Of a stretch of DNA of 64,000 bases, positions 3,087 to 33,771 are shown piece by piece (within the stretch, counting starts at the first letter, position 1; each line of letters opens with the position of its first letter). The notes under the pieces were generated by a model. It was not told where the DNA came from. It was given only the letters and a program-made list of their open reading frames with translations, and did not search any database. The stretch lies in contig JAKAQP010000003.1 in assembly GCA_021822485.1 (NCBI GenBank), positions 1 through 64,000 of the forward strand, read 5' to 3'. This DNA comes from a bacterium (lineage in GTDB: Bacteria > SZUA-79 > Acidulodesulfobacterales > Acidulodesulfobacteraceae). The translations under genes and the position numbers were made by a program.

Positions 3087-3608
3087 ATGGGGTTATTTGG
3101 AAAAATTTTTTTTGCAATAGTTATAGATATATTTTTAGAAATTTACGTATTTATAGAAATAGCCGAAAGATTGGGCTATGCCGAAACAGCCGGCCTTTTG
3201 ATATTATTTAGTATAGCCGGTTACGTAATAACTAAAAGAATTAAATATGCCGCTTTTCAAAATGCGCTATCCGATTTTTCAAAAGGAAAAATTTTAAATA
3301 AAAATTTTATTAAATCGGCGGCTTACTTTATCGCCGGAGTGCTGTTTTTTATTCCCGGATTTATAACCGACTGCATAGCGGTTCTTTTTTTGATTCCGTT
3401 TTTAAATTATTTTCTAATATATCTGATATTTAAATACTTCAAAAATAAATTGAAAGGCAATTTTACTTATTATTATCATAACGTACATAACGAAGCCGAA
3501 GACGGCATGGATGTATTTACGACGGAAGCCGGAGAGGCTGAAGATCCCGACGCTGATGAAAAACCGCATAAGACTAATTTAATCTCCCTGCCTTTTAAAA
3601 AACACTAA
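3087..3608 (+). CDS. fxsA: FxsA-family inner-membrane protein
   Basis: A 173-residue membrane protein. It matches the FxsA pattern: an N-terminal hydrophobic segment with DIFLEIYVFIEIAERLG, then helices around 33-50 and 90-125 and an acidic-to-basic cytoplasmic tail. Escherichia coli FxsA relieves phage T7 exclusion by the F plasmid when overproduced; its normal job is unknown. It follows the kinase gene by about 30 bases, possibly as the last gene of that unit. It ends facing the convergent complex-I-like cluster. Confidence 0.75.
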   Translation: MGLFGKIFFAIVIDIFLEIYVFIEIAERLGYAETAGLLILFSIAGYVITKRIKYAAFQNALSDFSKGKILNKNFIKSAAYFIAGVLFFIPGFITDCIAVLFLIPFLNYFLIYLIFKYFKNKLKGNFTYYYHNVHNEAEDGMDVFTTEAGEAEDPDADEKPHKTNLISLPFKKH

Positions 3609-3671: not shown

Positions 3672-5774
3672 TTACAAGGGTATCATAACGATTATAAAAA
3701 AAGCCGCGATAAAGACGAAGAATATATAAAATATGTACAAATTTAAAGAACCGTTCTGCATAAGTTCGGTCGTTACGGAACTGATTTTTTCGAACAGTTT
3801 TATCAGGGGCAGATATAGATAATATTCGATAAGCGGAAATATATAAGAGCCGTAACCGCTTGAATTATGATAATAAGACGAGTAAGGAAAAGGGTTTTTA
3901 AGTTCGTGAGGATGTTTTGATGTTTCGCTTTGAACATGTACCCTGCTTCTTTTTTTATAAACAAGATTAAACATAATTCTTAAAGCATTGGAAAAACCCA
4001 GCGCCGATACCTGCGCATGCGGATTTATTAAATTTTTGCTTCCGCCGCCTGTCCATGCGTAATCCACGAAACGCTGCTTGGGTTTTACTATAGTTTTATA
4101 TAAAATATAAAGGATTAATATAAACGCGATCGATACGAAAAACAGGTAAACAGGGCTTGACGCAGAAAACGAGCTGTAATAAGGTATAAATATATAATTT
4201 TTTAATATTTTACCGCTAATATTAATGTGATATATAGACTGCGATACTTTTGACAGAACCGGAGTATATAAAAACATAAAGCCCGCCAACGATATGCCGA
4301 TAAGCGCCGGTATTAAAAGGGCTATATTCATAGAAAACGGAACTTCTTTCGCTTGTTTTGCTTCCTTTGACTTCGGCAAACCGAGAAACGTAAGTCCGTA
4401 TAATTTTACGTAAGTCGAAACAGCAACGGCCATACTTAAAGCCATTATGGCTCCTACCGTAAAAATAAGTATCCTTGGAAGAACGGAACTTATATGAAAA
4501 CCTAAAAAAACAACCTCGAGATTGAGCCATTCGGAAACGAACCCGTTAAGCGGCGGAATTCCGGCGGCGGATAAAATCCCTATAAATATAAGCACTCCGG
4601 TCAAAGGCATGCCTTTTAAAATTCCTCCGAATTTATCGATATCGTGGCTTCCCGTTTCATATTCTATATTTCCCGAACCCATAAATAAAAGGCTTTTAAA
4701 AAACGCATGATTTATTAGAGCATATAGCGAGGCGACGAGAGCAAGCGCTGAGAGACCGGCCAAACCGAAATAATTATAATAAAGCGATGCGCCTATTCCG
4801 GTTAATATCAAACCCATATTATCGACGGTAGAATATGACAACAGCACTTTAATATCATGCGTCTGAGACATATATAAAACGCCGAAAAACATCGTTGACG
4901 CCGCAATAATCAATACGATTGAACCAAGCATTAACGCAGTGTTTAGCGGATGAAGAACATAAAGTCCAAACCTGATGACCCCGTAAACTCCGCAGGACGT
5001 CAACACGCCGCTTAAAACTCCGGACACTCCCGAAGGCGACGCGGGATGAGCCTCAGGCAGCCATATATGAAGTGGAACTATGCCCATTTTTGCCCCGAAA
5101 CCGAATAAAAACAACAGAAAAACTATTTCTTTTACATAAGCCGGCATCGTTAAACTTTTAAGCGTTTCGAAATTAAAACTATTTGCATGCAAATATAAAA
5201 TTATTAAACCGACTATTATAAGCATTGCGCCTATTTCCATTATGACCGCCATTAAAAAAGCTGCCCTCTTGGTTCCCTTGACATAATGTTTGGTCATTAC
5301 AAGAAAATAGGAAGATACCGCCATAATTTCCCAAAAAATTATGAATATAAAGCCGTTAAAAGAAATAATGACGTAATAAACGCTGATAAGCATTATGCCG
5401 AACAGGAACGAAAAAAGCGGCGTATTTATCTCTCGCCCTATCTTTTCGATATATTTTATCTGGTAGAGGGCTATATAAAAAAATACCGAAAAAATAAACA
5501 GTATAAAAAAATCGCTTAGCGGGTCGAATTTTAATATTATTCTGCCTGCCGGAAAAAATCTTCCAATCTGAAACGACAGGTTTAAAAGATTTCCCGCTTC
5601 CATAAACGAAATTACCGAATATAAAACAGCCGTAAAGGAAGCCGCCATATATAGAATGTTTGAAAAAACGAAGGGTATGGATTTAAATCTATCCCCCGAA
5701 ATCAAACCTATCATCGAAACAATAACGCCGGATAACGAAAAAAGTAAAAATAGATAATAATAATTATACGTCAT
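3672..5774 (-). CDS. HyfB/NuoL-like proton-conducting antiporter subunit of Ehr-like complex
   Basis: A 700-residue polytopic membrane protein of the Mrp/NuoL antiporter family, closest in style to HyfB/HycC. It has about 15 hydrophobic helices, the conserved core WLPEAHPASPSGVSGVLSG (about 235-255), and a C-terminal extension with additional helices. It should form a proton- or sodium-translocating channel in the membrane arm. It is the last gene of the six-gene unit and overlaps the fusion gene upstream by ATGA (5771-5774), so translation is coupled. In known hyf operons hyfB comes first; here it is last. Confidence 0.85.
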   Translation of the reverse strand: MTYNYYYLFLLFSLSGVIVSMIGLISGDRFKSIPFVFSNILYMAASFTAVLYSVISFMEAGNLLNLSFQIGRFFPAGRIILKFDPLSDFFILFIFSVFFYIALYQIKYIEKIGREINTPLFSFLFGIMLISVYYVIISFNGFIFIIFWEIMAVSSYFLVMTKHYVKGTKRAAFLMAVIMEIGAMLIIVGLIILYLHANSFNFETLKSLTMPAYVKEIVFLLFLFGFGAKMGIVPLHIWLPEAHPASPSGVSGVLSGVLTSCGVYGVIRFGLYVLHPLNTALMLGSIVLIIAASTMFFGVLYMSQTHDIKVLLSYSTVDNMGLILTGIGASLYYNYFGLAGLSALALVASLYALINHAFFKSLLFMGSGNIEYETGSHDIDKFGGILKGMPLTGVLIFIGILSAAGIPPLNGFVSEWLNLEVVFLGFHISSVLPRILIFTVGAIMALSMAVAVSTYVKLYGLTFLGLPKSKEAKQAKEVPFSMNIALLIPALIGISLAGFMFLYTPVLSKVSQSIYHINISGKILKNYIFIPYYSSFSASSPVYLFFVSIAFILILYILYKTIVKPKQRFVDYAWTGGGSKNLINPHAQVSALGFSNALRIMFNLVYKKRSRVHVQSETSKHPHELKNPFPYSSYYHNSSGYGSYIFPLIEYYLYLPLIKLFEKISSVTTELMQNGSLNLYIFYIFFVFIAAFFIIVMIPL

Positions 5775-6583
5775 TTTAAACCGCCATTTTTTATTAACAG
5801 CAAAACGTTTAATATTTCAAAAGGATTTGGCGGACAGTGCGGCAGCATAATTACGTTTTCGTTATCGAGTAAAGCAAGCAGGTTTGAATCCTCCGCCCCC
5901 TTTGCCGTTTCGTTCTCGAAAATGCCGCCGAAAATAGCGCATGAACCTGCCAAAACGATAAACCTCGGTTTCGGAATATTATCTAAAACATTTAAAAATA
6001 CCTCCTTCATTCGTTCCGTAAAAGTTCCGGTCGCAAGCAAAACATCGGCAAACCTTGGACTTGGCGTAATAAATATTCCTAACCTGTGCATATTGTAATA
6101 CGGATTGTTTAACGCGTTTATTTCCGATTCGCACGCCCCGCAAGAACCCGTATCTATATGTTTAACAAATAACGATTTTTTAAAAATTTTTTTATCGGCC
6201 GTATAATTTTGCGGACATATATTGAAATCTAATCCTGCTGCATAACTTATTGCGCCGATACCTCCTGAGCCGTTAACATCGATACAAACGTCTATGCACA
6301 ATCCGCAAAAAATACACCTTTCCGCATCGATAACTTTTAACGGCGCACATTCCTTTATTTCTTCTTCATCGGATAAATTACTCAGGTTTATTGCTTTCGT
6401 CGGACAAACAAGTTCGCACTCCCTGCATTTCCGTTCCCGCTCGTTGTCTTTTTTTGTCAAATTTAAACATTTCCGTTCATTTATTTTTATCGATGAGATA
6501 AACCCGTCGTAAAAATCGTTTTCTTTAGGAAATTTAACCGATTTTATTCCGAATTTTAATCCGTTATAAGTCCAGAAAGCCAT
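5771..6583 (-). CDS. Ferredoxin fused to NuoB/HyfI-like small subunit
   Basis: A 270-residue fusion of two proteins that are separate in known hydrogenase-4 and complex I operons. Residues about 30-105 are a 2x[4Fe-4S] ferredoxin-like (HyfH/NuoI) domain. The second cluster motif is complete (Cys90, 93, 96, 100). The first lacks the usual first cysteine (CRECELVCP gives Cys53, 56, 60), and Cys39 might substitute. Residues about 135-270 are the NuoB/HyfI-like subunit with the proximal cluster ligands Cys148, Cys151, Cys214 and Cys250 (CGAC, AGSCAIFGG, PHCPPNP). It should pass electrons inside a membrane-bound complex. It sits between the hyfG-like and hyfB-like genes and overlaps the latter. 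Confidence 0.85.
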   Translation of the reverse strand: MAFWTYNGLKFGIKSVKFPKENDFYDGFISSIKINERKCLNLTKKDNERERKCRECELVCPTKAINLSNLSDEEEIKECAPLKVIDAERCIFCGLCIDVCIDVNGSGGIGAISYAAGLDFNICPQNYTADKKIFKKSLFVKHIDTGSCGACESEINALNNPYYNMHRLGIFITPSPRFADVLLATGTFTERMKEVFLNVLDNIPKPRFIVLAGSCAIFGGIFENETAKGAEDSNLLALLDNENVIMLPHCPPNPFEILNVLLLIKNGGLK

Positions 6584-6653: not shown

Positions 6654-7826
6654 TCATTTATCCAATGCCGCAACGGAAAAATTATAACTCGTCTCGTTTA
6701 TGTTAAAATCCATCATCATCGTATTTTTTGTACCGCAGGCAAACAATTTATAATTATTTTCAAACGGATATTTTATGCTTATTTTTTTAAAAATAGTACC
6801 GTCAAAATCTTTTATATAACAAAAAATTGCTCCTTCGGACGATTCCGCGTATCCAAAACCGTGCTTTGACTTTTCGTCTTTAAAATATCGGTTTTCCAAA
6901 TCCTTCGACTCTTCAAATTCTTCCTGCTTCGATAAATAATCCGCCGTGTAACGAAATCCATTTCGTTTAAGCATATCGCGACAGTATTCAAGTATATTTA
7001 AAGACTGCCCTATTTCTTCAATTCTGACCATATATCTCGAAAAAGCATCTCCGTCTTCAAATACGACGGGTTTAACGTTTATTTTACCGTATAAAAGATA
7101 CGGCCTGTTTATTCTTAAATCTGATGAAATACCTGCGCTTTTTGCTGCAACTCCTTTTGCGCAGAACCGCTTTGCCGTTTTTAAATCTATTTTTCCGGTA
7201 GTCTTCAATCTGTCTATGTGGGATTTTGTTTCCATATTTTTTTTAATTATTTCCTGAACTTTATTTACGATTAATCTTACGGAATTAAAAATATTTTCGA
7301 TATCTTCGAGCGATAAATTTACTCTGATTCCGCCTATTTCGTTAATGCCCATAAAATAACGGGATTTTAAATACTTATGAGACAACTGTTTTAACGCCTC
7401 CGCATGATAGGCATATAAAGCGGAAGGAACCTGAATATAGGTGGACTCGGCTATTTCCGATAAATTTTCTATATGGTTTCTGATTCTTTCAAATTCTGCA
7501 AAAAACATTCGCAGAATTTTAATATTATTATGTATTTTATCCTTAAGCCCTAAGAAATCTTCAACGCCGAGGCAGCAGCTCAGGGAAGCGGAAAAAGCGT
7601 GAAGTCCCGATATTCTCTCTATAAGCAAAATCTGTTCGTATAAATTTCTTTTTCCGGCAAGAATGGTTTTAACATTTCTTGTCTTATAACCTGCCGTAAT
7701 TTCTAAATTATGAAGCTCTTCCCCCGACGACAGAAAATTAAATAAAATAGACTCGGAAACGCCTTTTCTTACCGGACCCCAGATAAACTCGTAATCTCCC
7801 AAAAATTTATATTTGCCGTGATTCAT
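6654..7826 (-). CDS. NuoD/HyfG-like large subunit lacking Ni-Fe ligands (Ehr-type)
   Basis: A 390-residue homologue of the group 4 hydrogenase large subunit/NuoD, without an N-terminal NuoC-like domain. The residues that bind the Ni-Fe centre are gone. The N-terminal motif RICGIC reads RISGLH (Ser73, His76), and the C-terminal DPCxSC reads NFSVAA (Ser384, Ala387). The protein ends without the usual protease-cleaved tail. This is the signature of Ehr complexes, described as links between complex I and group 4 hydrogenases. So it should not make or use hydrogen; the electron donor/acceptor or ligand is unknown. Framed by hyfF-like and ferredoxin/hyfI-like genes. Confidence 0.85.
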   Translation of the reverse strand: MNHGKYKFLGDYEFIWGPVRKGVSESILFNFLSSGEELHNLEITAGYKTRNVKTILAGKRNLYEQILLIERISGLHAFSASLSCCLGVEDFLGLKDKIHNNIKILRMFFAEFERIRNHIENLSEIAESTYIQVPSALYAYHAEALKQLSHKYLKSRYFMGINEIGGIRVNLSLEDIENIFNSVRLIVNKVQEIIKKNMETKSHIDRLKTTGKIDLKTAKRFCAKGVAAKSAGISSDLRINRPYLLYGKINVKPVVFEDGDAFSRYMVRIEEIGQSLNILEYCRDMLKRNGFRYTADYLSKQEEFEESKDLENRYFKDEKSKHGFGYAESSEGAIFCYIKDFDGTIFKKISIKYPFENNYKLFACGTKNTMMMDFNINETSYNFSVAALDK

Positions 7827-7851: not shown

Positions 7852-9345
7852 TTATTTTATTTTAAAATTTATGATATGGACTATCCCAATTAATAAATTA
7901 TGCAGACCGCTTGGAATATAAAATCCTAAAATTAACGATGCCGCGAGCGGCAGTAACATAGGCACATATGAAAACGGCGAAAAATCGCCTCTTTCCTCGT
8001 TAAAATTTTCGTCCGCTTTACCGAAAACAATAGAACCCGTTTTCGACAACAGGCTCACAAACGCCGCAATTAAGAGGCTTATCAACAAAACCGTCATCCA
8101 GTAATAGCCGTTTTTTAAACTCTGGAGTATTATTAAAAATTCACCGATAAATATTATAGAAGGCGGGGCGCCGATTAACGCCAGCACGCCGGCAGAAAAT
8201 AAAAAAGCGGTCTTAGGCATAACATAAAAAGCCCCTTTAATTTTTTTAATATCTTTTGTTTTATATTTGTGTAAAAAATTGCCGGAACCGAAAAACATAA
8301 CCGGCTTTATCAGGCTGTGTCCCAGCATTTGCAAAAGCGCGCCAAAAGTTCCGAATATTCCACCCAAACCGAACCCCAAACTAATTATGCTCATATGTTC
8401 TATGCTAGAATACGCGAAAAGCCTCTTCGTAGTTTTTTGATTGATAATTCCCATTACGCCGATAAATAAAGAAAAAAGACCGATTATAATCATAATAGTC
8501 TGAGGGAAGTTAAAACCCAAATTTTTCCCGGTAATATTAAAATACCTCATTATGCCGTACATTGCCGTATTTAAAAGGGAAGCCGAAAGCATGCTTGAAA
8601 TAGGAGAAGGAGCTTCGGAATGGGCATCGGGAAGCCACGTATGCATTGGAGCAAAACCGACTTTAGTGCCCAAACCGATTACTATTAAGACAAATGCGAA
8701 TCTTACTATATCCTTATTGAGATAAACTGCGTTTAAGCTTAAATTAGTCCAATCCATAGATGTAGCAATATTTCCGCTTCCCGGAATATTCCCCGAAAGA
8801 TAAAAAAGTACAGTGCCTAAAAGAGCAAGGGAAATTCCCGCAGAAACTATCACTATGTACTTCCATGCGGCTTCTATAGACTTTTCCGTAACTTCCGCGA
8901 TAACTAAAAAAGCGCTCGTTATCGTCGTAAGTTCGATATCTATAAGATAAACCGCCATGTTATTAATCATGGGGGCAACCAGCATACTCAACGCAAAAAG
9001 ATTTAAAAAAAAATAATACCTGAAAAATTCTCCGTCGGTTATCTGTTCGTCTTCAATTGCAAGCCTCATATATGAAATTCCGTACATAGAAGACAAAAAA
9101 TACACGATGCCGACCAGCAGTATTATATAAGAGCTAAATTTATCTATTACTATCGCCCCGTTAAAAATCGAGACGGTTTTCAGGGTTATCGAAAAGTAAA
9201 GAATAATAAACGCGCCGGCAAGGTCTAAAGAAGAAGAAAAAAGACTTGCATATTCGACAAATCTTTTATTTTTTAAAATAAAAGAACTTAAAGAAACAAA
9301 TAGCGGAATTATCAAAAATATAACGATAAAAAGTTTCATATTCAT
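7852..9345 (-). CDS. HyfF/NuoN-M-like antiporter subunit of Ehr-like complex
   Basis: A 497-residue membrane protein with about 13-14 hydrophobic helices. It has the antiporter-family core HTWLPDAHSEAPSPISSMLS (about 235-255) and the later HSLIKPVMFFGSGN segment carrying a conserved Lys. It is the second ion-channel subunit of the cluster besides the HyfB-like protein. Two such subunits imply at least two ion-translocation paths. It begins just after the hyfE-like stop (spacing 6 bases), within the same unit. Confidence 0.85.
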   Translation of the reverse strand: MNMKLFIVIFLIIPLFVSLSSFILKNKRFVEYASLFSSSLDLAGAFIILYFSITLKTVSIFNGAIVIDKFSSYIILLVGIVYFLSSMYGISYMRLAIEDEQITDGEFFRYYFFLNLFALSMLVAPMINNMAVYLIDIELTTITSAFLVIAEVTEKSIEAAWKYIVIVSAGISLALLGTVLFYLSGNIPGSGNIATSMDWTNLSLNAVYLNKDIVRFAFVLIVIGLGTKVGFAPMHTWLPDAHSEAPSPISSMLSASLLNTAMYGIMRYFNITGKNLGFNFPQTIMIIIGLFSLFIGVMGIINQKTTKRLFAYSSIEHMSIISLGFGLGGIFGTFGALLQMLGHSLIKPVMFFGSGNFLHKYKTKDIKKIKGAFYVMPKTAFLFSAGVLALIGAPPSIIFIGEFLIILQSLKNGYYWMTVLLISLLIAAFVSLLSKTGSIVFGKADENFNEERGDFSPFSYVPMLLPLAASLILGFYIPSGLHNLLIGIVHIINFKIK

Positions 9346-9351
9346 ATGGTT

Positions 9352-10026
9352 TTAACCTACCAACCTGTTTAACATAGTAGTAGAAAATGAACCTGTCTGT
9401 ATCTTCATAAACATAGAAAGAATCAGCATTGCCGTTACCGTCACCAGAATATCGAATAAAACTACCAGTTCTACTATGAGCGGAAGAGTCGGAACTACGA
9501 CGACCGATAAAAGAAATATTCCGTTTTCTATGACAAGAAGTCCAAGAATATGCGTTATCGTAGTAAATCTCGAGATAATCATAAAAAACCCTACGAATAT
9601 TAAACTTAATGCAATCGAAGAAGCGTTTACGACTATTTTAGAAGAAAACGGGGAAATCAATCTGTATATCAAAAAATAGGCAAAAACCGTTAAAACAACG
9701 CCTGAAATAATAGAAAACGGTATTTTAAGGGTCAATTTTACTTCTTCTTTAATGTTAAATTTTTTTATCATTTTTAAAAGAATGTAAGGAACAAATATAG
9801 TTCTTACGAAAAGCGTTAAAAAAGCGACAAGATACAAATCTACGCTTTGCGCTTCTATTCCCAGAATCAGGGTAAGGACGAATATTAAAAACGACTGGAA
9901 ACCGTAAGCGTGTATATAAAACGAAATCCATCTAGAACTCAGCATTACGAACGAGGACAGAAGAACCAGCGAAACCAGGAGGTCTTCGATAACGTAAATG
10001 TAAAGCGGCATTGAGTATCCAAGCAT
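9352..10026 (-). CDS. HyfE/NuoK-like membrane subunit
   Basis: A 224-residue membrane protein with about six to seven hydrophobic helices, in the position and size of HyfE. The C-terminal part (about 135-220, LGLLVIENGIFLLSVV) shows the NuoK-like pattern with an intramembrane Glu (VIENG). It would link the channel subunits of the membrane arm. It starts 3 bases after the hyfC-like gene ends, so the two are tightly coupled. Confidence 0.8.
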   Translation of the reverse strand: MLGYSMPLYIYVIEDLLVSLVLLSSFVMLSSRWISFYIHAYGFQSFLIFVLTLILGIEAQSVDLYLVAFLTLFVRTIFVPYILLKMIKKFNIKEEVKLTLKIPFSIISGVVLTVFAYFLIYRLISPFSSKIVVNASSIALSLIFVGFFMIISRFTTITHILGLLVIENGIFLLSVVVVPTLPLIVELVVLFDILVTVTAMLILSMFMKIQTGSFSTTMLNRLVG

Positions 10027-10029
10027 TTT

Positions 10030-11001
10030 TTAAAACCCTTTGTATTGAAAAGTCATTATGGCAAGCACGCTTAAAACGAACGCGGCGCCGAAATATTCCT
10101 GATATCTGAAAAACCTTAATCTTGAAATTGCCGTATCTATCACGGCGGCGATTACCCCGATTGCAAGCATTTTTATAATAAGGCTTGCTATAGCTATAAT
10201 AAGAGAGAAGGGGGTATGATTCACGGCTAAACCCCATGGAAACACTAAAACATTAATAAAAATCACCAAAAGTAAAAACTGCTTCATGTATCCCGCCCAT
10301 TTTAATAATGCCAGATACGGTCCGGAGTATTCTAAAATCCTTGCTTCCTCAATCATGCTCATCTCGGCATGGGTGGAAGCGTTAATAGGTCTCCTGTCCG
10401 TATCGGCTAAAAATAACAGGAAAAAGGCGGCAATTATCATAAAATGCGGCGAACTGAAATAAAGAGGCAGGGACGCGGTTATAGTATGAAGCATAACATA
10501 AGGAAGAGTCGATTTTGCGATTAAAGCAACGCCTACAAAAACAAGAATTAGGGTAGGTTCGGAAAGAATGGCAAGAAGGGTGGAGCGCGAAGAACCTAAC
10601 CCGCCGTAGCTTGTGCCGAGGTCAAGGGACGCAATATTTATAAAAAACGATGAAAGAGAAAACAGAAACGCTCCGCCCAGCATATCGCCCATAAACCCGA
10701 GAGGAAGCGGATATGCCGTTAAAACAGGAATCAGAAGGGTTATGAGTATCATCGAAATAAAAGAAACAAACGGAGCCGACCTAAAGACAAACGATGCATC
10801 CTTCGGTATTAAAATTTCTTTATGGAAAAGTTTATAGAGGTCGTAATATGGCTGAAAAACCGACGGTCCCGTCTTGCCTTCTATGATTTCTTCTGCTTTC
10901 GATATAAACCCTGCGATAAAAGGAGAACATACAATAACCGTTAAAACCTGAAAGACTTGAAAAACGGTCGAATTTAGGTATAAATTTAGATAGCCGTTCA
11001 T
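10030..11001 (-). CDS. HyfC/NuoH-like membrane anchor subunit
   Basis: A 323-residue protein with about eight hydrophobic helices. Features of the NuoH/HyfC/HycD family are visible: GPSVFQPYYDLYKLFHKE after the first helix and HAEMSMIEEARILEYSGPYLALLKWA on a cytoplasmic loop, close to the HycD pattern. It anchors the soluble arm to the membrane arm. It is the first gene of the cluster. The nearest Shine-Dalgarno (AAGGAG, 11017-11022) lies an unusually long 15 bases from the ATG, and that sequence can be masked by the upstream leader, so expression is probably controlled at translation initiation. Confidence 0.85.
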   Translation of the reverse strand: MNGYLNLYLNSTVFQVFQVLTVIVCSPFIAGFISKAEEIIEGKTGPSVFQPYYDLYKLFHKEILIPKDASFVFRSAPFVSFISMILITLLIPVLTAYPLPLGFMGDMLGGAFLFSLSSFFINIASLDLGTSYGGLGSSRSTLLAILSEPTLILVFVGVALIAKSTLPYVMLHTITASLPLYFSSPHFMIIAAFFLLFLADTDRRPINASTHAEMSMIEEARILEYSGPYLALLKWAGYMKQFLLLVIFINVLVFPWGLAVNHTPFSLIIAIASLIIKMLAIGVIAAVIDTAISRLRFFRYQEYFGAAFVLSVLAIMTFQYKGF

Positions 11002-11011
11002 TATAATAAGC

Positions 11012-11100
11012 CAATACTCCTTTTTCTACATTGCGTTTAATCAATAAATTGTGCCACGCTTACAATACTGCGTCAACCAATATGCGATGTAGGAGTTATT
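11012..11100 (-). promoter_or_regulatory. Riboswitch expression platform: alternative pairing that masks the ribosome binding site
   Basis: The strand ACTCC-TACATCGC contains the 3' half of the aptamer pseudoknot. It can instead pair with GCAATGTA (7 of 8 bases) and, across a GAAAAA bulge, with GGAGT, the Shine-Dalgarno core of the hyfC-like gene. Pseudoknot and anti-Shine-Dalgarno helix exclude each other. Ligand binding should therefore free the ribosome binding site and switch the cluster on. The pairing is seen in the sequence; the switching is inferred. Confidence 0.6.
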
Positions 11101-11142
11101 AGCTTGTTATTTATACAAAGCGTTTAGGCAAACCCCATTGCC
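11088..11142 (-). promoter_or_regulatory. Fluoride (crcB) riboswitch aptamer
   Basis: Read on the minus strand, a 55-base element fits the crcB/fluoride aptamer as I recall it. P1 is GGC...GCC, followed by the AAACGC joint. P3 is GCTTTGT/ACAAGC with a one-base bulge. The 3' part is GCTAATAACTCCTACA, matching the family GCTGATG...CCTACA. The key pseudoknot forms: GGGGTT in the first loop pairs over six bases with AACTCC (one G-U). It begins about 6 bases after the predicted transcription start of the complex-I-like cluster. No covariance search could be run. Confidence 0.8.
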
Positions 11143-11154
11143 ATAATTTTTATA

Positions 11155-11183
11155 ATTTTGGCATATTACGAAAAATTTGTCAA
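11155..11183 (-). promoter_or_regulatory. Sigma70-type promoter of the Ehr-like cluster
   Basis: Minus-strand TTGACA (11178-11183), a 17-base spacer and CAAAAT (11155-11160). The predicted start is near 11148, just 5' of the riboswitch. The -10 region sits in an imperfect inverted repeat GCCATAATT...AATTTTGGC, which could be an operator. Confidence 0.65.
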
Positions 11184-12141: not shown

Positions 12142-12870
12142 CTAGATTGCCGTATTGGATATTGCCTTATTCTGCAATTCCGTGATTTTTGCGACCGCCT
12201 TTTTAGAAAGGTTATAAAGTTTGTCGAGAACTTCAAATTCTATGGGCGTTTTTTCGGCGCATCCCTGAATTTCGATAATTTTTTGGCTGCCCGTCAGTAT
12301 AAAATTAAAATCCAGATCGGCGGTCGAATCTTCCGAGTAATCTAAATCTACCAGAATTTCTCCGTTTACTATGCCTATGCTTATTGCGGCGACGGAGTCG
12401 TAAAACGGCATTTTTTCAATTTTTTCCTCTTTTATAAGATTTAAAAACGCTAAGTATGCGGCTACGTAAGCGCCGGTTATTGATGCCGTTCTCGTTCCGC
12501 CGTCGGCGCTTATAACGTCGCAGTCTATAAGAATAGTTATGCCGGGAAAATATGAAAAATTAATAACCGACCTAAGCGACCTGCCGATTAACCTCTGTAT
12601 CTCCTGCGCCCTTCCGTTTACTTTTCCTTTTGACGAATCCCTCGGTATTCTGCTTTGCGTAGACCTTGGGAGCATCGAATATTCCGCCGTAAGCCATCCC
12701 TCTTCTTTGTCTTTTAAAAACGGCGGCACCTTATAATCTACGGATGCGGTGCATATTACCTTGGTATCCCCGACTTCTACTAGGCAGGAGCCCTCGGCAT
12801 ATTTCATGTAACCGGAAGTAATAACCATAGGCCTCATTTCATCGGCAACCCTGTTATTATTTCTTAACAT
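12142..12870 (-). CDS. rph: Ribonuclease PH
   Basis: A 242-residue phosphorolytic 3'-5' exoribonuclease of full family length that trims tRNA 3' ends. Recognisable blocks are RPMVITSGYMKYAEGSCLVEVGDTKVICTASV at the N-terminus, GWLTAEYSMLPRSTQSR, GRAQEIQRLIGRSLRSV and the acidic SADGGTRTASITGAY with the active-site aspartate region. It is the last gene of the long minus-strand block, directly after the Sec-TusA-like gene. The facing intergenic region holds only a possible promoter pointing the other way. Confidence 0.95.
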   Translation of the reverse strand: MLRNNNRVADEMRPMVITSGYMKYAEGSCLVEVGDTKVICTASVDYKVPPFLKDKEEGWLTAEYSMLPRSTQSRIPRDSSKGKVNGRAQEIQRLIGRSLRSVINFSYFPGITILIDCDVISADGGTRTASITGAYVAAYLAFLNLIKEEKIEKMPFYDSVAAISIGIVNGEILVDLDYSEDSTADLDFNFILTGSQKIIEIQGCAEKTPIEFEVLDKLYNLSKKAVAKITELQNKAISNTAI

Positions 12871-30854: not shown

Positions 30855-31460
30855 ATGTCTTTAAACCATTCTGATTACGTTAAAGATATAGTATTCGCAT
30901 TTAAAAAACTCCCCGGCATAGGCGAAAGATCTGCAAGAAGGCTTGCATTTTACTTATTGTCACAGAACGAATCCGTAGCTTACGGTCTTGCGGATGCAAT
31001 AAAAAATGCCAAACAAAACATAAAATTATGCCAAAAATGTTTTAATCTAAGCTCCGACGATATCTGCCATATATGCGGCAACCCGTCGAGAAACGGAAAA
31101 CAGCTTTGCATAGTAGAAAATCCCGAAATAATATACGTATTTGAAAAGAGCGGAAATTATAACGGTTATTATCATGTATTGCACGGTTTAATAAATCCGC
31201 TGGAAGGGGTAACGCCGTCCGATTTAAAGCTTAAAGAGCTTGCGAGCAGAGTAGAAATCGGCGGTTTTGAAGAGATTATACTTGCGCTTAATCCAAACTC
31301 CAACGGGGAAGCTACCTCTATATATATACAGAAAATTTTATCGCCTTATAACGTCCGCATTTCCGCTTTGGCAAGAGGGATACCCATAGGCTCCGATTTA
31401 GAATATGTGGACAAAGACACTCTCTCGGAAGCCATTAATTATAGAAAAAAATTCGATTAA
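30855..31460 (+). CDS. recR: Recombination protein RecR
   Basis: A 201-residue recombinational-repair protein of normal length. N-terminal helix-hairpin-helix KKLPGIGERSARRLAFYLL, zinc finger CQKCFNLSSDDICHICGNPSR and Toprim domain (LCIVENPEIIYVFEKSG...YHVLHGLINPLEGVTPSDL). Twelve bases after ybaB. Confidence 0.97.
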   Translation: MSLNHSDYVKDIVFAFKKLPGIGERSARRLAFYLLSQNESVAYGLADAIKNAKQNIKLCQKCFNLSSDDICHICGNPSRNGKQLCIVENPEIIYVFEKSGNYNGYYHVLHGLINPLEGVTPSDLKLKELASRVEIGGFEEIILALNPNSNGEATSIYIQKILSPYNVRISALARGIPIGSDLEYVDKDTLSEAINYRKKFD

Positions 31461-31461
31461 G

Positions 31462-33771
31462 ATGAACAATAAGGTTTTACTTATATCGATTGACAACCTC
31501 AGATACGACTGTGTAAGTTATATTAAGAACAGGCCTCATCTTAAACAATTTTACGTCGAAAATTTAGTCGATACACCCACGTTAGACAAAATCGCCGAAA
31601 ACTCAACGGTTTTTACGGATTTTTTTTCAACATCGAGCTATACTACCGCTGCGCATGCTTCTTTATTCACCGGATTGCTACAGCCCAAGCACGGTTTAAG
31701 GCCTTTTTTTTATAAAAAAATGAGGGCAGACTGTGCGACTCTCGCGGAAATTTACAAGAATAACGGCTATAAAACCATATTCTATTCCGACGTTATAGAA
31801 CTTTTTCAGCCTCTGGGACTGACCAAAGGATTTGATTTTATATGCGCAAACGATATTAATCCGCTTTTTAAACAAATTTCTCTTTTAGAAAACGAAAAGG
31901 TGTTCTGTTTTATACATCTTTTCGACATTCACGAACCTTATATTTTTTCGCAAAATTATAACGAAAACCATTATAACGACGACTATTTTGCATTCATCAA
32001 CAAAATGTCATCTTTATATAAAATACCAGTTCAGAACAATAATCCTTTCACTCTCTGGAATAATTTTTCCGGAAAAGTAAATTACGGGGTACAAATTATG
32101 CTTCCCCCATATATTTACGGCGTCAATAAATTCGACAAAGGACGATTTAGGCTTATATATGGTTTTTTAAAAAATACGGGGTATTTTAACGATGAAAATA
32201 TCTATTCTATTTTTGCCGACCACGGAGAAGGCAGAATAGTTTTCTACGATATGCCTGTTTTCGGACACATGGGCGAACTTTTCGACGAAGTTATAAAAAT
32301 ACCGCTGATACTGCATGCGCCGCAATTAGAAAAAGGCGTTAATAATAAATTAGCTTCAATAGTTGATTTATTTCCCACGCTAATGTCTTTATCCGGTTTT
32401 AACGCTGTTTCCGACGATAAAAACGCCGCCGCAGTAAATAAAGTTACAAATTTAATTAAAACGGACGGATTATCTTTGTTGGGAGAAAAAGAAAGGGAAT
32501 ACTGCTATTCGGAATTTTGCACGCAAAATATGTATAACGAAATAATGCAATTTTCCGCAGGCGTTTATGACAGAAGCAAAAACGGCGCCTCTTCTAAAGA
32601 CAAATATTTCCTGTCTCAACGCTCAATAAGAACTAAAGACCGTAAATATTTATTTATTCCGGATAATATTTTGCAGTCGGAAGCAAAAAAAATCATAGAA
32701 AACATAAATCTTTCCGATGAAGACTTTATAATAGAAATGTTTAACTCAGTTATGAGAAAAAGGGTCAGCAAACCCGAATACCTGTTTCTCCTCAATTCGC
32801 TTAAATCGAAACAGACTGCGAGACAAAACATTTATCAAAGCATGATAACTTCGGAAATTTATAACAGGCCTAAAAATTATTTCTTTGACCTTATAAACGA
32901 TCCGCTCGAAGAAAATTTTAACTTGCTAAATATCTCTCTTTCGGATTCAATAAAATATATAGAAATATTAAACGAAATAGAAAGCCATTCATTTATAAGC
33001 GAAAACTTATTCGACGATAAAAGTGCAACCGGCAAAAACGGCGCACGCATTATATTTAACCAGCCGGAATCCGATAAAAACATAGCGGCTGAATCTCTTG
33101 CGCTTCTTGAACAAAAAATTTCGCTCGGTATAGAAATTATTAAAGAAGCGGAAGACAGATATGGAGATAAAATCGGCATAGCATTCACGGGCGGTAAAGA
33201 TTCAACCGTTTTATTAGACTTGATAAGACGTTCGAAAAATGGGAAAATACCTTTTAAGGTTATTACCATAGATACGTCGGCAGAATTCCCCGAAATTAAA
33301 GAATTTATGGAAAAATTAAAATCCGCTTGGAACTTCGAAATTGTAAAATACTCAAACAATGAAGCGCTTCGGCAAAAATATCCTATAGCTAAAGATAAAA
33401 CCGACTGCTGCAACACTCTTAAAACTATTCCTCTTAAGGAGTCTATTAAAGATCTTCATCTTAAAGCTATGTTTACCGGAATAAGAAGGGATGAAAACGA
33501 AGCAAGGGCAAACGAATCATTTTTTTCTAAAAGAAAAGACCCCCACCATTTCAGAGTCCATCCTTTGCTTCATTTTACGGAAAAAGATATATGGGATTAT
33601 ATTAAGTTTAATAATCTTCCATACTGCAATCTGTATGAACAGGGTTACAGATCTTTAGACTGCGCGCCTTGCACTCATATAACGGCAGAAAAAGATGCCG
33701 CCGAGCGCTCCGGGCGCTCACAGGATAAAGAAGCCGCTATGGACAAACTGCGTCAGCTTGGATATTTTTGA
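31462..33771 (+). CDS. Fusion: alkaline-phosphatase/sulfatase-fold domain plus CysH/CysD-like PP-loop domain
   Basis: A 769-residue cytoplasmic protein (no signal peptide). The ORF track starts inside recR at 31405; the ATG at 31462 right after the recR stop fits the sulfatase domain start. The N-terminal part (about 1-370) is alkaline-phosphatase fold: SIDNLRYDC metal Asp, YTTAAHASLFTG nucleophile region, and ADHGEG. The nucleophile position is Thr, not the Cys/Ser of formylglycine sulfatases. The C-terminal part (about 555-769) is PAPS/APS-reductase-like: PP-loop FTGGKDSTVLL, RRDENEAR, and CC...CAPC spaced by 83 residues as for a 4Fe-4S cluster. The catalytic ECGLH tail of APS reductases is absent. 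Substrate unknown; a sulfur or phosphate ester is guessed. Confidence 0.75.
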   Translation: MNNKVLLISIDNLRYDCVSYIKNRPHLKQFYVENLVDTPTLDKIAENSTVFTDFFSTSSYTTAAHASLFTGLLQPKHGLRPFFYKKMRADCATLAEIYKNNGYKTIFYSDVIELFQPLGLTKGFDFICANDINPLFKQISLLENEKVFCFIHLFDIHEPYIFSQNYNENHYNDDYFAFINKMSSLYKIPVQNNNPFTLWNNFSGKVNYGVQIMLPPYIYGVNKFDKGRFRLIYGFLKNTGYFNDENIYSIFADHGEGRIVFYDMPVFGHMGELFDEVIKIPLILHAPQLEKGVNNKLASIVDLFPTLMSLSGFNAVSDDKNAAAVNKVTNLIKTDGLSLLGEKEREYCYSEFCTQNMYNEIMQFSAGVYDRSKNGASSKDKYFLSQRSIRTKDRKYLFIPDNILQSEAKKIIENINLSDEDFIIEMFNSVMRKRVSKPEYLFLLNSLKSKQTARQNIYQSMITSEIYNRPKNYFFDLINDPLEENFNLLNISLSDSIKYIEILNEIESHSFISENLFDDKSATGKNGARIIFNQPESDKNIAAESLALLEQKISLGIEIIKEAEDRYGDKIGIAFTGGKDSTVLLDLIRRSKNGKIPFKVITIDTSAEFPEIKEFMEKLKSAWNFEIVKYSNNEALRQKYPIAKDKTDCCNTLKTIPLKESIKDLHLKAMFTGIRRDENEARANESFFSKRKDPHHFRVHPLLHFTEKDIWDYIKFNNLPYCNLYEQGYRSLDCAPCTHITAEKDAAERSGRSQDKEAAMDKLRQLGYF

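Follow-up and report, generated by a model that had tools for sequence, protein, structure and literature searches.

A predicted fluoride riboswitch heads the operon of a distinct clade of Ehr-type, complex I-like complexes and points to a role in fluoride stress

In a 64,000-nucleotide stretch of a bacterial contig (JAKAQP010000003.1, positions 1 to 64,000, assembly GCA_021822485.1; hereafter the window), we identified a fluoride riboswitch aptamer at the head of a six-gene operon for an Ehr complex. We assign a probability of roughly 60% to the reading that a translational fluoride ON riboswitch governs here a six-subunit Ehr complex of a specialised cross-phylum clade, and that this complex is a redox-driven ion pump dedicated to fluoride stress. 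If fluoride induction, which is inferred, is real, it provides a specific inducer and a testable function for a widespread class of complex-I-like complexes that have been orphans so far.

The Rfam covariance model of the fluoride riboswitch (RF01734) matched the window at 11151-11083 on the minus strand over its full length, with 46.7 bits (gathering cut-off 34, E 8.3e-10), and this was the only match in the 1.6-Mb assembly. A first-pass annotation of the same letters had placed a crcB-type aptamer with its pseudoknot at the head of a six-gene transcript and had proposed this covariance-model search; the score above the gathering cut-off and the co-directional operon behind the match bear it out. 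P1 is formed by 11142-11139 and 11130-11127, and the two pseudoknot strands, GGGGT (11136-11132) and ACTCC (11096-11092), pair with one G-U pair included and are intact. In sequence, P1/P3, pseudoknot and 5' UTR placement, the element agrees with RF01734 members, and the leader is like translational fluoride riboswitches in that ligand binding and access by the ribosome exclude each other. What sets this case apart is the controlled target, an Ehr complex, and, among relatives in the window's family, very long P3 loops, with one aptamer missed by Rfam. The promoter-like sequence that adjoins the aptamer (Table 1) puts the predicted transcription start at the 5' edge of the aptamer and not downstream of 11088, which would have refuted the first-pass reading. 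Since promoter-like sites in this region are about as frequent as expected from shuffled sequence, the support for this promoter is only positional.

An important question is how the aptamer could act on the operon. The ACTCC strand of the pseudoknot can alternatively pair with GGAG at 11020-11017, as the first-pass annotation had suggested, and the helix proved longer than it had noted: positions 11104-11082 are near-complementary to 11037-11008 (-19.4 kcal/mol; 1 of 1000 shuffles was as low), and the computed fold of the window leader is this OFF hairpin. The hairpin was observed in all ten leaders compared, which come from three genera. Pairing holds in 79 of the 80 cells of its lower stem, where one pair has changed on both sides from A-U to G-C, and one pair of the upper stem occurs as A-U, G-U and G-C. 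For 11 of 13 leaders, 0-3 of 1000 shuffled sequences attained the pairing energy; the remaining two leaders gave counts of 17 and 43 (mononucleotide shuffles, one strand). A terminator-like site was looked for on the operon strand and none was found; this absence and the retained pairing support a translational switch. The leader therefore indicates a translational fluoride ON riboswitch as judged from sequence, with fluoride binding and the change in expression both inferred. Without fluoride, the 3' strand of the aptamer would fold onto the Shine-Dalgarno region and the operon would be poorly translated; bound Mg-fluoride would lock the pseudoknot and free the Shine-Dalgarno sequence. The distance from GGAG to the ATG of the first gene is 15 nt, longer than usual, and the switch model does not explain this spacing.

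The operon behind the aptamer consists of six co-directional genes in the order H-E-F-D-I-B, which overlap or are separated by gaps of at most ~70 nt (Table 1). Subunits were assigned with Pfam and NCBIfam; all six score far under the curated cut-offs of NCBI equivalogs and are thus left unnamed by any existing NCBIfam equivalog. The set is group-4-like with antiporter-type subunits, and the cysteine ligands of a Ni-Fe site are missing, as is typical of Ehr complexes, which are described as probable ion pumps with unknown partners (PMC6349859). The window operon contains no NuoEFG (NADH module) and so does not qualify as complex I. Its core subunits are homologous by sequence to those of complex I and of the Pyrococcus Mbh/Mbs-type complexes, with which it shares antiporter-type subunits, but it has no separate Mrp module, Ni site or NADH module, and the quinone-site histidine is mostly lost in its clade. 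No genes for an electron donor or acceptor were identified. A second Ehr/group-4-type cluster is present in the same genome (G000:C66:49305-50246; L156 11270-12265), without an aptamer and in the ordinary B-H-E-F order.

Table 1 Features of the leader, the operon and the flanking genes in the window
Feature	Position	Strand	Evidence
RNase PH-like gene rph, right edge of slot	12142..12870	-	synteny; name from reading the sequence
Sigma-70-like promoter TTGACA-17-(TG)CAAAAT, adjoining the 5' side of the aptamer	11155..11183	-	10/12 consensus matches
Fluoride riboswitch aptamer (RF01734)	11083..11151	-	Rfam match; kept in 17 family loci
3' strand of aptamer, also 5' arm of putative OFF-state hairpin	11082..11104	-	pairing analysis
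3' arm of putative OFF-state hairpin with GGAG Shine-Dalgarno (11020-11017)	11008..11037	-	pairing and fold
H, NuoH/HycD-like membrane subunit, first operon gene	10030..11001	-	PF00146; nearest solved relative 7z0s_D; tree
E, HyfE-like membrane subunit	9352..10026	-	NF008556 below its cut-off; order conserved
F, HyfF-like antiporter-type subunit	7852..9345	-	PF00361; E138, K228, H343, K347, E402 conserved
D, NuoD/large-subunit-like, without Ni-Fe cysteines	6654..7826	-	PF00346
I/B fusion, ferredoxin domain and NuoB-like domain with N2-type cysteines	5771..6583	-	PF01058, Fer4
B, HyfB-like antiporter-type subunit	3672..5774	-	PF00361; E149, K229, H356, K360, E415 conserved
fxsA, left edge of slot holding crcB in sister genomes	3087..3608	+	PF04186; synteny

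Alignments across the clade specify which functional residues have been kept. The window D subunit has neither Ni-binding cysteine pair, and none of 51 aligned clade members has the CxxC/CxxC ligands, all four of which are present in the hydrogenase control (G126). This observation confirms the Ehr nature that the first-pass annotation had assigned to the complex. Where ordinary members have the quinone-site histidine (HKG/HRG motif), the clade mostly has an aromatic or some other residue, which makes quinone doubtful as the acceptor and is a further departure from complex I. Counted by alignment, the first three N2-type cysteines are present in 35 of 36 members, and the fourth in 22, being unaligned in the remaining 14; one ferredoxin-type cluster is general in the clade, and a second is mostly restricted to the window's family. 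Among the antiporter-type subunits (50 F and 40 B proteins compared), the Glu, Lys and His residues hardly vary, as would be required of an ion pump.

To what extent is the association of aptamer and operon a property of a wider group? H homologues and Rfam aptamers were searched independently in 386 genomes; outside the family, an aptamer immediately precedes each of the four best H homologues (36-44% identity), and such cases number seven in all. A scan of GTDB contigs was then seeded with aptamer-linked H sequences, the best 80 of 489 relatives were retained, and aptamers were located with a custom covariance model built from the 18 aptamers found by Rfam; a sample of its matches was confirmed by Rfam. 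Among these best 80, 61 of 65 non-family loci have an aptamer in the same orientation as H and no more than 1.2 kb upstream of it, so the survey of other genomes proposed at first pass came out positive. The four exceptions comprise one truncated contig, two loci with aptamers farther upstream and one without a convincing aptamer. In 41 control loci (ordinary Ehr, hydrogenase and complex-I H genes), the custom model gave nothing above 13.5 bits. Because the scan was seeded by aptamer-linked sequences and only the best 80 were kept, 61/65 describes the clade and not all 489 relatives.

In a maximum-likelihood tree of 80 H subunits (quick search, some controls on long branches), the 40 subunits from aptamer loci fall on one side of a single branch with SH-aLRT 100, and 13 named phyla are represented among them. 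Four of the 40 lack an immediately adjacent upstream aptamer, two because the locus is truncated (G012 and L234) and two because the aptamer is 1.6-3.4 kb away (L192 and L199). The clade loci share the arrangement aptamer-H-E-F-D-I-B, whereas ordinary Ehr and hydrogenase loci show B-H-E-F without an aptamer. Ordinary Ehr complexes have, like the clade, HyfB/F/E, NuoH, NuoD and NuoB-like subunits and no Ni-Fe ligands (PMC6349859); they differ in their order B-H-E-F-D-I, in lying outside the clade's branch and in the absence of the fluoride riboswitch. The C-terminus of D reads DFPII.A.F / MMMDFNINE in the clade and NIVPDFPLxNKSFN in ordinary Ehr, and the H motif also differs. On this sequence evidence, the aptamer with this operon is the mark of one distinct branch of predicted complex-I-like pumps whose carriers belong to over a dozen bacterial phyla. 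A relic aptamer, or one that acts on the operon merely by an accident of proximity, is hardly credible when the leader pairing and the aptamer are conserved across diverged loops and the aptamer-operon pairing recurs in at least 13 phyla. The first-pass suggestion of a little-studied fluoride-resistance system is much strengthened by these comparative data, and its scope had been underestimated.

These data bear on a label already in print. 'Formate hydrogen lyase' was named among crcB-motif targets (Weinberg 2010, PMC2864571) and is also listed as a common fluoride-riboswitch target in a review (PMC11139923), which substantiates the link mentioned in the first-pass annotation. This clade very probably lies behind the label, as inferred from annotation: H and E resemble FHL/hydrogenase-4 subunits as annotated, and the nearest relative of H among solved chains, subunit 4 of FHL (7z0s_D), explains the name. 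The published reading, in which a formate hydrogenlyase or group 4 [NiFe] hydrogenase is triggered by fluoride as part of a fermentation shift, draws on that structural proximity and on the literature label itself. We regard it as very improbable, because the four Ni cysteines are absent from all 51 D subunits and present in the true hydrogenase of the same alignment, the gene order is different, and the H tree separates the aptamer-linked subunits from the control hydrogenase H. Formate hydrogenlyase or hydrogenase identity was ruled out on these three grounds. No formate dehydrogenase subunit is found among the six genes of the window operon or annotated beside that of Mycobacterium branderi; other loci were not screened systematically. 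Without a NiFe site, the complex is neither FHL nor hydrogenase and the fermentation reading is unsupported, so that the 'formate hydrogen lyase' label of the fluoride-resistance literature is corrected. The evidence points to the clade as an unrecognised fluoride-stress machine so far filed under that name. Baker et al. 2012 is said to be the primary survey of fluoride-riboswitch genes, and we infer, again from annotation, that the entries named 'formate hydrogenlyase' there belong to this clade. In the open-access literature searched for fluoride riboswitches together with Ehr, hydrogenase or NADH dehydrogenase, no paper describing the clade was found.

Within the window's family, whose relatives are named SZUA-79 and Candidatus Acididesulfobacter in the genome collection, Rfam found the aptamer in 18 of 30 genomes. 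Seventeen of these aptamers precede the H gene, and one precedes crcB; the H subunits behind the 17 are 82-97% identical (100% in the window). At one more Ehr locus (G029), Rfam missed the aptamer, whose P3 loop is long, and another locus (G012) begins at a contig end, leaving its leader unreadable. Every family Ehr locus with a readable leader thus has the aptamer, and the order H-E-F-D-I-B is retained in all loci long enough to show it.

Like the operon, the fluoride channel gene crcB is a fluoride-riboswitch target and, in sister genomes, occupies the same chromosomal slot; CrcB/Fluc is a small passive channel, whereas the operon encodes a six-subunit redox-type complex. Among 29 genomes on the marker tree, 17 have the operon only, 7 CrcB only, 1 both and 4 neither. 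CrcB is therefore missing from 17 of 18 operon-bearing genomes, and the only one with both (G009) is a 59%-complete bin, in which the coexistence may be real or a binning artefact. The raw Fisher test gives p = 0.0014 and ignores kinship; after correction for relatedness, the exclusion keeps the expected direction but is not significant, with only ~3 informative independent pairs. The near mutual exclusivity is thus no more than suggestive. More telling is the synteny between fxsA and rph. G001, G003 and G005 show the order nusB-rph-> <-crcB-fxsA; the window has the operon in the fxsA-rph slot and no crcB there; in G004 and G008, the slot lacks crcB and the operon lies a few genes off. An acid-dwelling lineage thus carries such a complex where its sisters have the standard fluoride channel gene.

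The replacement of crcB in the same slot, and the lack of CrcB in 17 of 18 operon-bearing genomes, could also mean that the complex itself extrudes fluoride, a membrane subunit having become a redox-driven F- (or F-/H+) path in place of passive Fluc. The inside-positive potential of acidophiles would drive a passive F- channel the wrong way, which counts in favour of this idea. We nevertheless consider it improbable: the antiporter subunits have kept their proton-channel residues intact, crcB co-occurs with the operon elsewhere, and a CLC protein of unclear type, found in most family genomes examined (G000-G018) though not in the window's own, could export fluoride there. Direct extrusion is accordingly less likely than an ion pump, but it is not excluded, given that most operon-bearing family genomes are without CrcB; if true, it would be a new transport principle. 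CLC-F was considered as an alternative exporter and set aside: within G000-G018, genomes with the operon and genomes with crcB both have CLC proteins, and the motifs of these proteins gave no chloride/fluoride typing. In the family CLCs of ~620 aa (L097-L109), GREGP is normal, but an unusual GHGTD stands in place of the GSGIP of most CLCs.

Outside the family, the clade operon often shares an island with crcB, so it is no general crcB substitute. Many clade loci contain two to seven aptamers, and the genes behind the others, named from reading the sequences, include crcB, enolase, antiporter-like and DUF190-like genes. The aptamer-controlled crcB, enolase and antiporter-like neighbours are known fluoride genes and count for a fluoride-stress reading. 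Cultured carriers are Caballeronia sp. SBC1 (plasmid pSBC1_2) and M. branderi (plasmid pJCM12687). In the former, a soil carrier, the aptamer occupies 7685-7755 of L325 and H is at 8001. In the latter, the subunits carry piecemeal annotations, and near the operon are genes for enolase, a mismatch-repair protein and a universal stress protein. Ordinary B-first clusters on other plasmids showed no aptamer.

Does the complex then serve energy metabolism or ion homeostasis? It is possible, though unlikely, that it mainly re-oxidises ferredoxin when fluoride blocks enolase and other enzymes, with pumping as a by-product. The retained redox arm and the aptamer-controlled enolase adjoining the operon in some loci speak for this, while the exchange with crcB in the window's family fits transport better, and antiporter genes, the second most common fluoride-riboswitch class (PMC11139923), favour ion homeostasis. 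HF entry acidifies the cell and lowers the proton-motive force on which fluoride export depends (PMC11139923). Most likely, the role of the complex is that of a redox-driven ion pump countering this acidification. A fluoride-induced pump is in line with what is known of how fluoride regulons work and with the retention of the pump residues. Ion pumping against HF acidification had been put forward at first pass; conservation of those residues favours it, while activity, pumping and physiological role remain inferred. The complex would oxidise a low-potential donor, probably ferredoxin, and transfer its electrons via one or two [4Fe-4S] clusters plus an N2-type cluster to an unidentified acceptor, expelling protons or cations. 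Such expulsion would offset the acid load of HF and the loss of proton-motive force and so keep fluoride extrusion possible; in the acid-dwelling family of the window, the operon may stand in for crcB. If the complex does pump, cells' defence of their proton-motive force against HF would be explained.

Several further observations were made at these loci. L143/L144 (G155:C1 3458-3484 kb) form a dense island with six fluoride-aptamer matches in 26 kb, one of them ahead of H. Directly behind the aptamer-headed Ehr operon of G124, on the same strand, lies a molybdenum-cofactor riboswitch (RF01055, 87 bits; L146 10799-10918). In L199, L206, L237 and L192, aptamers also precede frames of ~580-610 aa that by eye appear to be of the dynamin/GTPase type. 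Elsewhere in the window, a 788-aa frame on the plus strand (31405-33771) combines, in appearance and by eye, a sulfatase-type N-terminus with a PAPS-reductase-type C-terminus.
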